From an uncultured Lysobacteraceae bacterium (GTDB lineage: Bacteria; Pseudomonadota; Gammaproteobacteria; Xanthomonadales; Xanthomonadaceae): a stretch of DNA of 14,304 nucleotides. The translations under genes and the position numbers were made by a program. Location: assembly GCA_946480825.1 (NCBI GenBank), contig CAMLLG010000088.1, positions 1 through 14,304 on the forward strand. Direction: 5' to 3'. Position 1 is the stretch's first letter; each line of letters begins with the position of its first letter. Positions 6,641 through 14,304 of the stretch are shown in pieces. A model generated the notes under the pieces. That model saw only the letters and a program-made list of their open reading frames with translations, made no database searches and was not told the origin of the DNA.

Positions 6641-6862
6641 ATGAAACTGAAAATCACGACCGTCGGCAACTCCGCCGGCGTGATCCTGCCCAAGGAACTG
6701 CTGGCCCGCCTGCGCCTGGAAAAGGGCGACGAACTGTTCGCGCTGGAAACCCCGGGCGGCATCGTGCTGACGACCTACGACCCGGAACTCGCGGCGCAGA
6801 TGGAAGTGGCCGAGCAGGTCATGCGCGATCGCCGGACGTTGCTGCACAAGCTGGCGCAATAG
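6641..6862 (+). CDS. AbrB/MazE/SpoVT-type antitoxin
   Basis: Protein of 73 residues. The N terminus (MKLKITTVGNSAGVILPKEL, then LARLRLEKGDELFALETPGGIVLT) is the swapped-hairpin AbrB fold used for DNA binding by MazE-type antitoxins. The C-terminal third (about 48-73) should be the flexible part that binds and neutralises the toxin. The ATG at 6641 is preferred because GAGG lies 5 nt upstream; the frame extends further back without a ribosome-binding site. It sits 10 nt before a Doc-family toxin gene and just after a promoter with an inverted repeat, the usual antitoxin-first, self-repressed layout. Its partner is unusual compared with the classical Phd-Doc pair, where the antitoxin has the Phd/YefM fold. 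Confidence 0.88.
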   Translation: MKLKITTVGNSAGVILPKELLARLRLEKGDELFALETPGGIVLTTYDPELAAQMEVAEQVMRDRRTLLHKLAQ

Positions 6863-6872
6863 GGGCGACGAC

Positions 6873-7301
6873 ATGATCGTCTGGATCAGCAAGCGCCTGG
6901 CTCTCGCCATTCACGACCGCCAATTGGCCGAACACGGCGGCGGCACCGGGGTGCGCGACGAAGCCCTGCTCGACTCCGCGCTCGCGCGGCCGCAGCAGTT
7001 GTTCGCTTATGGGGAACCGCCGCCCGATCTCGCCTCGCTGGCGGCGAGTCTGGCGTTCGGCCTCGCCCGAAATCACCCGTTCGTCGACGGCAACAAGCGA
7101 ACCGCAGCCGTCTGCTGCGAAACCTTCATCCGTCTCAACAATGCCACCCTGCAGGCCGACGATCTGTCGCTTTACCCGGTCTACCTCCATCTCGCCGCAG
7201 GCGATCTCGAGGAAACGGAGTTCGCCGACTGGTTGCGCCAGCATCTCGTGCTGGCGAACGTGGATCAGGTCAACGAAACGCAGGCCGCGTATTCGGGTTG
7301 A
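6873..7301 (+). CDS. doc: Death-on-curing (Doc) family toxin
   Basis: Fic-fold toxin of 142 residues. The core motif HPFVDGNKRTA begins at His68 and reads HxFxDGNKR. Lys75 stands where true Fic AMP-transferases have Gly, as in Doc of phage P1. Known Doc proteins phosphorylate EF-Tu and so stop translation, and the same activity is expected here. The helix before the motif (LASLAASLAFGLARN, about 53-67) and the N-terminal WISKRLALAIHDRQLAEHGG segment also fit the family. Start: the ATG has AGGGG 7 nt upstream. It is co-transcribed with the antitoxin, with a 10-nt gap. All motif residues are present, so it is probably intact. Confidence 0.92.
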   Translation: MIVWISKRLALAIHDRQLAEHGGGTGVRDEALLDSALARPQQLFAYGEPPPDLASLAASLAFGLARNHPFVDGNKRTAAVCCETFIRLNNATLQADDLSLYPVYLHLAAGDLEETEFADWLRQHLVLANVDQVNETQAAYSG

Positions 7302-9664: not shown

Positions 9665-12600
9665 TCATTGCGCGCGATAGCGACCGTCGATTTCCCATGC
9701 GCGTCCCATCGCCACCAGCATCTCCAGCAATTGCGGGAGACGCTTCTTCCAGGGCCCGCGGGCGGTGAAGCGCGCGGCGATGTCGTCCAGCGACAGCGCC
9801 TGCGGGCTGGCGGACAGCACGTCGGCGACCGCGCGCACCTGCGCCACCGCATCCTTCGGCCATGGCTGCGCCTTGGCGGCGACCGTCGGCGCCACCGCCT
9901 CGGGCGTCTCGTCTTCGGGGCCGGTATCGATGACCGCCTGCGCGGGCGCGGCCTGCGGATTCTGGAATTCCGGCCGCAGCCAGCGCACGAGGCCGCGCGC
10001 TTCCTCGGCGGCGCGTTCGGCGTTCAACGCCACCAGCCGTTCGAGCACCGCATCGTCGAAGGCGCGCTTGGCCTCGTCGCGGGTCTGGCCCTCGGCGGGC
10101 GCGTCGTTGCCGTGCGCCACGCGCAGCAGCGGCAAGAGATCGGACCAGCCGTAGGCGTCCAGCACCGCCGCATCCAGTTCGTCGTGGATCTGGCGCAGCA
10201 CCGACACCAGACCATGCTCGTGGATCGCGCGCTCCTTCGCGCTCAGCGGTTCGCCGCTGCGGATTTTTTCCAGCACGTTGTACATGCCGGTGATCGTGAC
10301 ATCGGGATGCGCGGCCTGTTGGCGTTTGCGGTGAACGTCGAGTTGTTCGGCGAGCGCGCGGATGCGGGCTTCGCGCCCCTCTGCTGCCGGGGGAGAGGTT
10401 GAAGGTGAGGGTTCTGCTGCATCCGAGCTTCGGGCCCAGAGCGCTTCAGGCACACGAGCGATGGAAGGAAACGGAAAACAATCGAAGCATGTGGTCTTGT
10501 TGTAGACAGGACGATCTTCCAGCGTGGCACCAGCCGCCAACGCCCATTCGACATGGACTGCGGAGGACAACACCCCCAACAGCCACGCATCCTCGTGACC
10601 GATGGCGATCAGCTTGTCGTCCGGCAATATCCCGGCATCGAGGAACGTGAAAAAACGATGTTTGCTGGTCTGTACAGTCGCGACATACCTCTGCAGGCCT
10701 CTGCAAGCAGAGCGCATCTTTGGCTGGTTTTCTCCGAAAATCCACCAGTTTTCGCGCCTTGAAGCTCTGGGATTGAGATCCCGCTCCGGCTTCACCCGCT
10801 CCAACAGCCACTGATACACCTCGGGAAACTGTTCCCGCACCTGCTCGGCATCCAATCCGAACATGTCGATCACGCGGAGATTTCTCGGCGTCTGGGTCAA
10901 GTCGCGCCCATTGCGATACGGTCGCAACCGCTGTTCGAGCCCGGGAACGCGGCCGAGGCCGAGCGCGATCGCCTGTTCCTCGGTGACAGTCATTCCTTCG
11001 CCGTGCGGAATCACGCCCCGATTGCTCAGCAAGCCGTTCGCACGCAGCGGAAGGGCACCAGAGACATTCGCGCCGATCTTGAGATCGGCGAAGATCGTGC
11101 CGCGCTTGTCGAACAGTTCGACCTCGACTTCATCGTCGCCGGTATCGCGTTCGCGAACGACTTCGCGCAACAGCGCAACGCCCTGCCCGCCCTGCGCCAC
11201 CGTCATCGCGATCCGCACCGCCGCACCATCGACGACATCCACCCACGGATGATCCGGAATCGCGAAGACGAGCGACAGCGCCTGCTCACCCGCACCGTCG
11301 TCCCGGCGCAGGCCGGGACCCAGCGGTTGATCTTCAGAGCTGGATCCCGGCCTGCGCCGGGATGACGACGGAGAAGTCGATGCAGTGGTCTTGCCGCCGG
11401 CGGCTTTCGCGGTGGGTGGCGCCATGGCCGCTTCGATCACGCGCCGATTGAACGCCTGACGGATCGAATTGGTGGTGATCAGGCCGAAGCGTTCCAGCGC
11501 GCCGCGACGCGTCAACAACGCGGCGTGATGCCACCAGTACATCACCAGATCGGCAGACTCGGGCACATCGGGCCACGCCTCGCGCAGCGCTTCGACATAG
11601 CCGTCGCCCAGCGCGATCCGCATCCGCTTGTTGCCGATGAACGGCGGATTCCCGACCACGAAATCCGCCTCGGGCCACGCGGCCCTGCGCGGATTCACGT
11701 AGCGCTCCACTGCCTTGCGCGCGGTCTCGTCGGGAATCTTCTCGCCGGTGATCGGCGAAATCTTCATGGTCTCGCCGTCCCAGCGCGAAACCGGCACGCC
11801 GCGGTCGTCGACGACCAGTTGCACGTCGTCGTAGGCCAGCACCGCGTCGCGATTCTCGATGTTGCGGAAATCGCGGATCACCGGCACCGGCGGATTCACG
11901 TCGCCGCGGGTGCGGAAATGCCATTGCAGGTAGCCGATCCACAACACGACTTCGGCGATGGCGGCGGCGCGTGGGTTGAGTTCGATGCCGAGCAGATTGT
12001 GCGGATCGACGGTTTCGCCCGCGGCGGCGTCGGCGCGTTCGCCGCCCAGAGCGAGGCCGGTCTGGCGGTCGCCGAGTTCGTCCAGCGCGTTCAGCACTTC
12101 GCCTTCGAGGCGCTTGAGATGTTCCAGGGTGACGTAGAGGAAGTTGCCGCTGCCGCAGGCCGGATCGAGCACGCGCACGGTGCAGAGCCGGTGATGGAAC
12201 CGGCGCAGTTCGGCGGCCGCTTCATCGGGCTTGCCTTCCGCGGCGAGCGCCAACGCGGCGACCTGCGCGTCGCTCCATTCCGCGCGCAGCGGTTCGATCA
12301 CCGTCGGCAATACCAGCCGTTCGACGTAGGCGCGCGGCGTGTAGTGCGCGCCGAGCTTGTGGCGGTCCTTGGTGCTGAGCGCGCGCTCCAGCAGCGTGCC
12401 GAAGATCGCGGGTTCGACATGCTTCCAATCGGCCTTCGCGGCCCGGATCAACAGCGCCAGCTGTGGTTTGTCGAGCGGCAGCGTATCGGGCTGCTTGAAC
12501 AGCTTGCCGTTGAACTGCAGCACATCGCCGGCGATCGCGGCCGAGAATCCGCCGCGGTCCATGTCGCGCCAGAGTTCGCCGAGCATGCGCATGGCGATGT

Positions 12601-13348
12601 CGGGCTGTTCGGCGTAGCGCAGCAGCAGATCGCGGAAACTGTCGCCCGGCAGCAGTTTCACGTCCTCGGCGAACATGGTGAACAGACAGCGCATGAGGAA
12701 CTGGGCGACCGCTTCGGCGCCATGGCCGGCGGCTTCGAGGCTTTTCGCGAGTTCGGCGAGGCGGCCGGCGATCTCGCGGGTGACGCGCGCGGATTCGCGG
12801 CTGGGGTCGAGCGCGAGCGGATCGGTCCAGACCTTGCGCAGTCGTTCGCGCAGTTCCGGTTTGCGCAGATCGTCCAGCGCGATGCGATGGCTGCGCGGAT
12901 CGGGGAACGGCGTGTAGGTGCCGCCGGAACGCGAGAACTCGGCGTAGAGTTCGATGCGGGTGCCGACATCCACCACCACCACGAATGGCGGCCGGCCTTC
13001 TTCGGCGGGCAGCGCACGGGCGTACTGCTCCGCCTGGATACGCGCGACCAGTAGAGCTTTGTCGAAGCCTTTGGCCTGCGTCCCAGCCTTGAGCTTCTTC
13101 GCCTCAAGCACGAATGCACCGCGGCGATACAAGTCCATCCGCCCCGGGCTCGTGCGACCGTCGCCGTGCGCGAAGGTGATCGGCCGCTCGAACATGTAGT
13201 TCTGCTCGGGCGTGGGGTGCGGCGTGTCGACGCCGAGCAGACGGCAGAGATCGAGCAGAAAGCTCTGCGAGGTAGACAGTTCGGAGGCGGCGACGCCCTG
13301 CCATTTGGCGATGAACGGTTCGACAGCGTCGCGTTGGATGTCTTCCAT
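9665..13348 (-). CDS. MmeI-like (type IIL) fused restriction endonuclease and DNA methyltransferase
   Basis: Single-chain restriction-modification enzyme of 1227 residues, expected to methylate adenine at a specific site and cut unmodified DNA nearby. N-terminal nuclease domain (about 1-150): PD-(D/E)XK-like residues Asp72, Glu82 and Lys84 in [16 protein letters not shown]. Helical spacer at about 185-330 ([19 protein letters not shown]). Methyltransferase at about 331-640: [18 protein letters not shown]-binding DPACGSGNF (395-403), [19 protein letters not shown], and catalytic NPPF (567-570). Target-recognition region at about 760-960. C-terminal helices follow, then a winged-helix-like end (about 1164-1227). 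AGGAG lies 5 nt before the ATG. MmeI itself has about 919 residues; part of the excess is two in-frame dispersed repeats (about residues 660-685 and 979-991). It is solitary, with no separate S or R subunit. A methyltransferase-only role is possible if the nuclease is dead. Confidence 0.85.
10376..10412 (-). repeat. Dispersed repeat read in frame inside the restriction-modification gene
   Basis: On the minus strand this reads CCCTCACC..CAACCTCTCCC followed by an AGAGGGG complement, the shape of a widespread proteobacterial intergenic repeat. It encodes residues 979-991 ([13 protein letters not shown]), a Pro/Ser-rich stretch unlike its surroundings, at the border between the target-recognition region and the C-terminal helices. 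The frame is kept. Recognition is from memory of the family, not a search. Confidence 0.6.
11295..11371 (-). repeat. REPIN-like inverted repeat pair inside the restriction-modification gene
   Basis: Two inverted arms of about 30 bp (11295-11324 and 11339-11371) differ by one base and a 3-nt gap and enclose a 14-nt centre. Each arm is itself a hairpin (CCCGGC-GCAG-GCCGGG). Together they form the typical layout of a REP pair (REPIN). It encodes residues 660-685 ([14 protein letters not shown] then [10 protein letters not shown]) without breaking the frame. It sits in a loop between the methyltransferase segment [17 protein letters not shown] and [14 protein letters not shown]. Confidence 0.85.
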
Positions 13349-13566
13349 GCAGGCTCCTCGGGTGCTGGAGCGATGTTACCGGAGGGCATCGAAGAGATGC
13401 GACGACAGGCGCCGTCAGATCAGACAGGGCGAAACGGCAGACCCCTCCACCGATGGCACGGGCGTTCGGATGCCAGGCATGGCGACGGGCTGCGGTGGTG
13501 TTTGGATAGTTGGTCACGCCTTCCGGCGCACCTACAAGATCTGGGTGGTGAACCGTGAGGCGCGCA

Positions 13567-13582
13567 GCGGGCTGAAGCCCGC
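13567..13582. repeat. Small REP-like hairpin
   Basis: GCGGGCT and AGCCCGC around GA form a 7-bp stem. On the minus strand the context GTAGCGCGGGCTTCAGCCCGC resembles a frequent short interspersed palindrome of xanthomonads and pseudomonads (recognition from memory). Confidence 0.5.
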
Positions 13583-13644
13583 GCTACCGCCCGCTGTGCC
13601 GCCTTCTCTAACGGTGGCAAGCGATGCGACCGTCGCCGGAACGA

Positions 13645-13671
13645 CGAAGGCCCCGCGGTGCGGGGCCTTCG
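13645..13671 (-). terminator. Strong hairpin, probable original purA terminator
   Basis: CGAAGGCCCCGC (13645-13656) and GCGGGGCCTTCG (13660-13671) with a GGT loop form a perfect 12-bp stem. On the minus strand the tail is TCGTTCC, a weak T-run. It lies about 70 bp beyond the stop of the purA 3'-end remnant but 200 bp beyond the intact purA stop. This suggests it belonged to the purA allele that left the remnant. Confidence 0.6.
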
Positions 13672-13690
13672 AATCGCAGCGAATCGAACG

Positions 13691-13723
13691 ACAGCAGGTC
13701 CCTCGCCTTCGGCTCGGGATGAC
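13691..13723 (-). repeat. Dispersed REP-like repeat, copy 2
   Basis: On the minus strand it begins GTCATCCCGA and ends with GAGGGACCTGCTGT, matching the ends of the copy at 9315-9352, with a GCCGAAGGC centre. The two copies lie on opposite strands on either side of the restriction-modification gene, about 4.3 kb apart. Confidence 0.6.
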
Positions 13724-13740
13724 AGGCCTTCACGCAATCG

Positions 13741-13790
13741 TCAGGCGAACGGGTCGCGCAGAACGATGTTGGCGTCGCGATCCGGGCCGG
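13741..13790 (-). pseudogene. Remnant of a second purA 3' end
   Basis: This 50-bp stretch matches the end of the intact purA (13871-13920) at 44 of 50 positions and in the same orientation. It encodes GPDRDANIVLRDPFA followed by TGA; the intact gene ends GPDRDANIILRDPFA with TAA. The six differences are synonymous (three), a conservative Val/Ile codon change (two bases) or a stop-for-stop change (one). Homology ends abruptly on both sides. It is too short to be a gene and is probably the last codons of another, once functional, purA allele. Confidence 0.8.
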
Positions 13791-13870
13791 CCTAGGCAGG
13801 CCCCAGCGTACGACGACGATGGGGCCGCGCCTGCGGGTGGTGAAAACGAAGCGGCCGCGTTCCGCGCGAC

Positions 13871-14304
13871 TTACGCGAACGGGTCGCGCAGGATGATGTT
13901 GGCGTCGCGGTCGGGGCCGGTGGACACGATCGCCAGCGGGCAACCGGCGAGTTCTTCCAGCGCGCGCAGGTAGGCGCGGGCGGCGGCCGGGAGTTTGTCC
14001 CATTCGGTGATGCCGGCGGTGGATTCGCTCCAGCCCGGGAATTCGAGGTAGACCGGTTTGCAGTCGTTCCAGCCGTCGGCGTCGAGCGGGGCGTATTCGG
14101 TGCGCTTGCCGCGGTATTCGTAGGCGACGCACATCTTCAGCTTGTCCATGCCGTCGAGGATGTCGAGCTTGGTGATGCACAGGCCGCTGATGCCGTTGAT
14201 GGCGACCGCGCGCTTCAGGGCGACGATGTCCATCCAGCCGCAGCGGCGGGGGCGGCCGGTGGTGGCGCCGTATTCCTGGCCGCGGTCGCGGATGCCCTGG
14301 CCGA
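13871..14304 (-). CDS. purA: Adenylosuccinate synthetase, C-terminal part, cut by window edge
   Basis: This enzyme joins IMP and aspartate using GTP to make adenylosuccinate, the first step from IMP to AMP. The last 144 codons are in the window. Family signatures: EYGATTGRPRRCGWMD, then ISGLCITKLDILDGMDKLKMCVAY, the PGWSES segment, and the guanine-binding end STGPDRDANIILRDPFA. The gene runs leftwards into a repeat-filled region where the final 50 bp occur a second time, so its 3' end has a recombination history although the C terminus itself looks complete. No hairpin is seen directly after its stop; the nearest is at 13645-13671. Confidence 0.96.
   Translation of the reverse strand, partial: GQGIRDRGQEYGATTGRPRRCGWMDIVALKRAVAINGISGLCITKLDILDGMDKLKMCVAYEYRGKRTEYAPLDADGWNDCKPVYLEFPGWSESTAGITEWDKLPAAARAYLRALEELAGCPLAIVSTGPDRDANIILRDPFA

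Follow-up and report, generated by a model that had tools for sequence, protein, structure and literature searches.

One of the closest described counterparts of the locus analysed here lies behind the E. coli tRNA genes tyrT/tyrV, where repeats (rttR) have the topology (tRNA 3' end + spacer)n, closing with a tRNA 3' end. In the K-12 MG1655 sequence, the repeats stand behind tyrV, and every one of them closes with the tRNA 3' end copied. The repeats are 178 bp long. Prophages and integrative elements that target tRNA genes or the 3' ends of protein genes replace and restore the end they enter and leave the old one downstream, with silent differences up to the stop codon; they are kilobases long, carry an integrase and have a fixed target. 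Insertions resembling those of non-LTR retrotransposons have a constant 3' end, microhomology at the joint and duplications of variable length. Among small dispersed repeats, RAYT REPs consist of a GT(A/G)G head followed by a palindrome, and BIMEs have been proposed to be non-autonomous and moved by IS200/IS605-type enzymes, according to passages of PMC2817692; passages of PMC3733652 describe REP clusters that are reiterated together with flanking DNA.

We examined a 14,304-nucleotide stretch of DNA from an uncultured Lysobacteraceae bacterium, referred to as the window, in which the end of purA occurs twice (Table 1). An earlier note on this DNA had described a 50-bp repeat of the purA end with 44/50 identity and six listed changes, all of which alignment confirmed: the copies lie 130 bases apart from start to start and, on the minus strand, read GPDRDANIILRDPFA plus stop in the gene and GPDRDANIVLRDPFA plus stop in the displaced copy. 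Both encode a protein end of the form GPDRDANI[I/V]LRDPFA, and the six base changes fall into four synonymous codons (the stop among them) and one Val/Ile exchange. A 35-base pattern taken from the repeat (up to 3 mismatches) matched twice in the window and in none of 200 shuffles, which excludes a chance origin. The GC-rich hairpin that the note had invoked does exist; as RNA in its context, it folds with -30.9 kcal/mol (z -3.3), and it lies ~70 bases beyond the displaced stop versus ~200 beyond the intact one. It was not called by a terminator pattern scan, being without a T run. Hairpins of the form GGCCCCGC...GCGGGGCC that resemble it stand immediately 3' of purA in three related loci (L012, L046 and L052).

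The topology is that of the tyrT/tyrV repeats: a gene 3' end plus spacer, closed by the gene end, was seen in the window and behind purA in two related genomes, G001 and G004. However, the rttR spacer (annotated rttR and tpr) is longer than, and unrelated in sequence to, the spacer family described below, which we call E. The joints differ as well (...GAGT followed by AATCC at tyrT/rttR, GG for E), and tyrT/rttR occupies one tRNA locus, whereas E is spread over protein and RNA genes. The Rfam family rtT had no match in window positions 13401-14000 or at 12 element loci.

Table 1. The repeated purA end in the window, with coordinates and strand, and the gene ends copied behind E, with the genomes in which each was seen.
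Feature	Location	Strand	Remarks
purA (adenylosuccinate synthetase), C-terminal 143 codons	13871..14304	-	Pfam PF00709, E-value 3.8e-53; extends beyond window edge
Gene-proximal purA end: CCGG + tail + TAA	13871..13920	-	joint after GG at 13917-13918
Element E (spacer)	13787..13870	-	starts right after stop codon, ends ...GCCTAGGCCGG
P1 hairpin of E	13824..13837	-	CCCGC-AGGC-GCGGC; outermost pair broken here; family form GCCGY-4-RCGGC
Displaced, probably native, purA end (GPDRDANIVLRDPFA, stop)	13741..13790	-	direct repeat of 13871-13920
GC-rich hairpin, candidate native purA terminator	13645..13671	-	perfect 12-bp inverted repeat
purA end copied	window, G001, G004		
parE end copied	G002, G005, G008, G010, G211, G223, G234, G121		
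PhzF-like end copied	G005, G009		
Mpo1-like end copied	G001, G002		
tRNA-Lys end copied	G002, G008		
SRP RNA end copied	G242, G179		
YrlA RNA end copied	G008, G005		
tRNA-like ends	G004 (L163), G011 (L141), G005 (L223)		contig pieces without intact tRNA gene
REP-like hairpin copied	G004:C86		

Judged by alignment, the 80-bp spacer of the window is one copy of the dispersed repeat family E, whose members are ~65-85 bp long and gene-less, with a conserved hairpin and a right end ...CGG. A BLAST search with the 130 bases at 13741-13870 found the spacer at two further places in G001 (E-values 9e-7 and 9e-4), and it aligns with the purA spacers of G001 and G004 and with dispersed copies. A model of the spacer, R1, had matches in 8 of 11 genomes of the genus of G001 at an E-value of 0.05 or less; G001 holds 13 of these copies and G004 holds 10, including those from which the model was built. 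A wider model, R2, was run on a sample of 247 family genomes and detected E in 54 at 0.001 or less, these E-values being rough. Copies used to build R1 or R2 match them by construction; this applies to the R2 match at window positions 13784-13868, because the window copy belonged to the model. The note had held that any element here was either lost or very small; it is very small, and the 80 bp, which the note passed over, are E itself.

In 109 aligned core copies, the final two G of E are kept in 99 and 105, and 95.7% of the pairs of the hairpin are preserved. Both-sided changes at P1 numbered 29 in 535 cells, whereas shuffles gave 8.1 and none of 500 was as high; a single pair accounts for 27 of the 29 (107 distinct copies). 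A control in which the partners were slid by two columns gave a covariation score of 0.146 versus 0.153 for the true pairing, with only 73% of cells pairing and 2 both-sided changes. No Rfam family lay over the E core in window positions 13401-14000 or at 12 other loci; at one locus, L155, a sub-threshold YrlA match overlaps the right end of an E. E resembles REP/BIME sequences in being small, extragenic, palindromic and dispersed, and in showing compensatory stem changes, although almost wholly at one pair and with the slid control close. Unlike RAYT REPs, it lacks a GTRG head, judged by a consensus built from 28 aligned copies, and duplicated gene ends are absent from the passages on REP/BIME of PMC3733652 and PMC2817692 on which we draw. 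In open-licence papers, covered with a non-exhaustive set of terms and in excerpt, there was no description of E or of such gene-end-duplicating micro-elements. A BIME-like composite at L156 (1442-1585) consists of two oppositely oriented E copies with outward GTAGGAGGG-type REP flanks.

E was found repeatedly 3' of a gene end and followed by a second copy of that same end (Table 1, in which parE is our name for a topoisomerase B subunit gene, Pfam DNA_gyraseB_C). Several further loci have arrays with locus-specific periods of 99 to 150 bases, and in those read in detail the unit is E plus the end of whatever precedes it, except at L220 and L221, where it is E only; the tRNA-Lys array of G008 closes with E. 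At 21 tabulated joints, GG precedes the joint in 20 on the gene side and in all 21 on the E side, as compared to a background of 8 GG in 100 dinucleotide positions of two tails. The exception is parE of G223, where the displaced copy keeps GG and the gene now has CG. Of 12 coding cases, 10 have their left joint at the stop codon or at most 3 bases off; for G223 parE and G009 PhzF-like, similarity continues for ~12 bases beyond the stop. Only 32 of the 107 E copies that were scored, at 22 of 81 loci, have a clear upstream copy, which counts against a general link of E with gene ends; the background was 5 of 500 random pseudo-element positions that scored at least 20 in 20 loci without an E match. 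The figure of 32/107 is biased upward, because L220-L225 were fetched for clustered hits and array members were counted singly; it also includes L142 and L225, which are the same place, and in at least two of the 22 loci (L220 and L221) the copied piece is E itself. Three cases that scored below 20 (parE at L248 and L256, and L268) were recognised by eye and are taken as real. The arrays at L220 and L221, both in G109, have periods of ~66-69 and 52 bases and a unit without a gene end.

Among the four best YrlA matches, two are above the Rfam cut-off and two just or somewhat below it; we take the neighbours of these Y-RNA-like genes to be rsr and rtcB. E stands directly behind them at L155 and L140 and ~400 bases behind at L085. 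At L242 (G048), E is accompanied by an apparent copy of a gene start in reverse orientation, presumably that of lpxH, which suggests that starts as well as ends of genes can be copied.

The displaced ends differ from the ends of their genes largely in silent positions. Across 14 gene-displaced pairs, 44 synonymous and 14 nonsynonymous codon differences were counted. When purifying selection was simulated for the gene but not for the displaced end, 36.8 to 40.6 nonsynonymous differences were expected, and with each of three transition biases all 2000 runs gave more than 14; the resulting P value is optimistic, because pairs partly share ancestry and the cleaner G009 copy was used. The direction, an excess of synonymous change across pairs, is strong. 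All 18 rows together hold 54 synonymous and 18 nonsynonymous differences; left out were copies 1 and 2 of G004 purA and the identical parE pair of G010. G009 has two displaced PhzF-like ends, and the count uses the one that is free of nonsynonymous change, not its counterpart with 4 synonymous and 2 nonsynonymous differences. The parE end at L256 (G234) is the same as that of L248 (G223) and was not entered. Against this trend, nonsynonymous decay was seen at single displaced ends (G001 purA, G002 parE, G002 Mpo1-like, G121 parE and, partly, G005 PhzF-like). By their codons, then, both displaced and gene-proximal ends look like working gene ends, and the idea that the two purA ends are two functional alleles is borne out by a synonymous excess that extends to other genes. 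A micro-ORF was rejected as the cause of the codon-level constraint: the displaced ends of G004 are each preceded in frame by ATG (MRLAW-AGPDRDANIVLRDPFA, stop), and this is not general because the window has CTG at the ATG position and a stop before the tail.

The closest of the 80 related purA loci that were kept is L001 of G001 (MAG; Lysobacter sp. PRO5). It is also the only one in which a second purA end was found by a 72% criterion, at nearly the distance seen in the window, in a scan of downstream DNA of up to 10 kb (far less for some loci). Its spacer aligns with that of the window, and L010 (G002) has a decayed version. Among the 11 genus genomes, G004 has an array of four purA ends with three spacers between them and a period of ~130, and its three displaced ends differ from one another by 7, 7 and 9 codons, all synonymous (P <= 1.5e-5). 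Relatives with identical tandem copies had been named as what would speak against two alleles; the array of G004 is tandem, but its copies are not identical. In G001, the displaced end is the diverged one, with Phe changed to Leu and the stop lost. It forms one arm of a perfect inverted repeat of ~24 bp (L001, 10530-10585), an arrangement that would result if the end had been copied back by a template switch at the natural CGCGA-TCCGY-TCGCG hairpin. A purA tree of 232 bases, with one of nine inner branches well supported, sets the array carriers in separate places and bears only weakly on their descent from one event.

Empty and occupied sites could be compared at parE, which was found in 9 of the 11 genus genomes and read in 8 (G009 was unread, and G004 and G011 gave no parE). 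In G001 the next gene follows directly after the stop, and in G003 it follows within 15 bases. G010 and G008 each have a single E and a second end, and G002 has three copies of E with three displaced ends. In each of these genomes, the native downstream gene follows immediately after the last displaced end. G005 has two E, with an outermost end that is without a stop and is followed by other DNA, and in G006 and G007 there is other DNA and no E. The E copies of G008 and G010 were found by eye first, match the model weakly (21.3 and 18.7 bits in a small search) and were not listed by the large model search. Since both empty and occupied sites exist, a unit of end plus E has been added, with the displaced end in the native position. 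Behind the Mpo1-like gene, E is present in G001 and G002, and there was no E within the 210 bases examined in G005, G006, G008, G009 and G011 (the motif reading excludes G003, G007 and G010). The parE ends of G010 are identical and share a CTC codon that is absent from its nearer relatives G002, G003 and G007 and present in the E-free G001; the tRNA-Lys copies are identical to their own gene. In both cases, local duplication is the plain reading.

We then compared the tails themselves across genomes. Comparison of the purA body between the window and G004 gave 40 differences over 232 sites, from which 10.7 are expected in the 48-base tail; their intact tails differ at 3 of 48 (P 0.003, simple binomial), which is the best of four carrier pairs, the others giving P 0.10-0.15. 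The outermost tail of G004 has 4, 4, 4 and 3 differences from those of G005, G006, G009 and G011, which are E-free at purA, and 4 from that of G001, while its intact tail has 7, 7, 8 and 9, and 6 from G001. Against the three genomes of its own clade that are E-free at purA (G003, G010 and G007), the displaced tail of the window shows 4, 7 and 5 differences and the intact tail 7, 10 and 6. G005, G006 and G009 are nearer to the intact tail of the window (5, 5, 5) than to the displaced one (6, 7, 6), G008 and G011 are nearer to the displaced end, and G001 is opposite throughout, its displaced purA tail being the distant one. The proposal that the remnant is the older end gains from the native position of the displaced end at parE and from the affinity of the displaced purA tail of the window to G003, G007 and G010; against it stand the mixed comparisons with distant genomes and the case of the sister genome G001. 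With moderate confidence, we favour the reading that tails may travel with E, and keep duplication of the target as a serious rival.

E is dispersed, its right end is joined at GG to many gene ends, its sites occur empty and occupied, and the ends on its two sides differ mostly synonymously. The explanation that we think probable, if by no great measure, is that E is a gene-less dispersed insertion element of Lysobacteraceae-type bacteria, and that a unit of gene end plus E enters at GG. The unit would comprise E together with a gene end that starts at GG and extends as far as the stop codon or, for RNA genes, the 3' end, and would enter at the GG inside that gene end. The gene would then end on the gene-proximal tail and remain intact, while the native end and its terminator would be left 80 bp downstream; repeated events, or recombination between ends, could build arrays of the form (tail-E)n-tail. 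The gene-proximal tail would be brought in by the unit, in some cases from a different species, and would not be a duplicate of the target. The earlier proposal that a new 3' end was supplied and the old one left behind may therefore hold, and it fits the E family as a whole. A trans-acting enzyme would cut at the right end of E and at GG, and the constant right end ...CGG, the GG of the target and a left joint mostly at the stop codon would suit a nuclease of this kind, perhaps of the Y1/HUH or IS110 families. Genes for Y1 transposases (Y1_Tnp) are present in 10 of the 11 genus genomes (30 matches); a scan of 5 of these 30 loci for E gave no match, no recombinase was tied to E, and the loci named yielded no larger autonomous relative of E. 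Pairing of E with its own gene end, as guide or template, was considered and rejected, as duplex energies were no better with the own tail than with tails from elsewhere (over 18 units, the own tail ranked anywhere between 1 and 18 of 18).

We advance more tentatively, and as doubtful, that E represents a new class of mobile DNA, a gene-less ~65-85 bp sequence that carries recoded terminal codons or the 3' end of the gene it enters, crosses between species and swaps the end of the host gene for its own. If true, usually essential genes (adenylosuccinate synthetase, topoisomerase B subunit, tRNA-Lys, SRP RNA) survive insertion. What seemed a trivial leftover at one gene belongs to a family-wide phenomenon: time and again, important genes have had their 3' ends duplicated, and possibly exchanged, and the terminal codons of a gene may differ in history from its body. 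As the element is too small to encode anything, the question becomes which enzyme moves such DNA with only GG as a target. E gives the E. coli tyrT repeats a wider context and offers natural empty and occupied sites for experiment.

It is quite possible, though we lean against it, that E is a mobile element with long target-site duplications of variable length (~17 to 66 bp), the second end being duplicated target and the GG a microhomology between the 3' end of E and its target, as in target-primed insertion. Variable duplication lengths, a constant right end and GG at the joint are what such insertion would give, and E shares with non-LTR-like insertions their constant 3' end, joint microhomology and variable duplication length; locally identical copies in G010 parE and in the tRNA-Lys arrays and a single E between two ends beside native DNA also agree with it. 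However, the synonymous excess is left unexplained, as 37-41 nonsynonymous codon differences are predicted and 14 were seen. Random duplications should also overrun the stop more often than observed, the left joint being at or near it in 10 of 12 coding cases, and the tail sharing of the window and G004 likewise speaks against duplicated targets.

We consider it improbable that slippage or unequal crossing-over duplicated the gene end with its downstream repeat in tandem, followed by neutral drift. Tandem arrays with periods of 99-150 bases do exist, but this process gives (tail-E)2, and a single E lies between two tails in the window, in G001 purA and in parE of G008 and G010; moreover, it would have to place its breakpoints at the right end of E and at GG in unrelated genes, and it does not predict the synonymous excess. 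Tandem duplication is therefore disfavoured for single-E loci, and likely for the growth of arrays once formed. Entry of the gene end plus E as a unit also accounts better for these loci than the remnant attachment site of a lost integrase-bearing island, which the earlier note had proposed and which we judge very improbable. Such islands do restore the gene end with silent changes, and E loci share with integrase-type elements the gene-end direct repeats and a native end beside native flank, but E is gene-less, has many targets and recurs as a family beside many unrelated genes, the spacer itself being the element. No integrase gene lies within E units, because the units read (~90-150 bp) are too short for one. 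By the 72% criterion, no distant second purA end was found in the 80 purA loci, that of L001 being at the same short distance, and plasmids (megablast) and phage collections gave no match to the purA-repeat region of the window. Least credible of all is foreign purA DNA recombined in through two crossovers, the upstream one homologous and the opposite one illegitimate and at GG, which accounts for the silent divergence and the native end left behind but does not explain why, at many genes, the illegitimate joint coincides with the right end of E.

Directly past the displaced purA end, the minus strand of the window carries a gene for a Type IIG MmeI-like restriction-methylase of 1227 aa (9665-13348); in L001 this position is occupied by other DNA, which we take to be antiporter-like. 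An inverted repeat lies inside the open frame of the MmeI-like gene (11296-11367). On the plus strand, at 6641-7301, a gene for a MazE-like antitoxin is followed by one for a Fic/Doc toxin.
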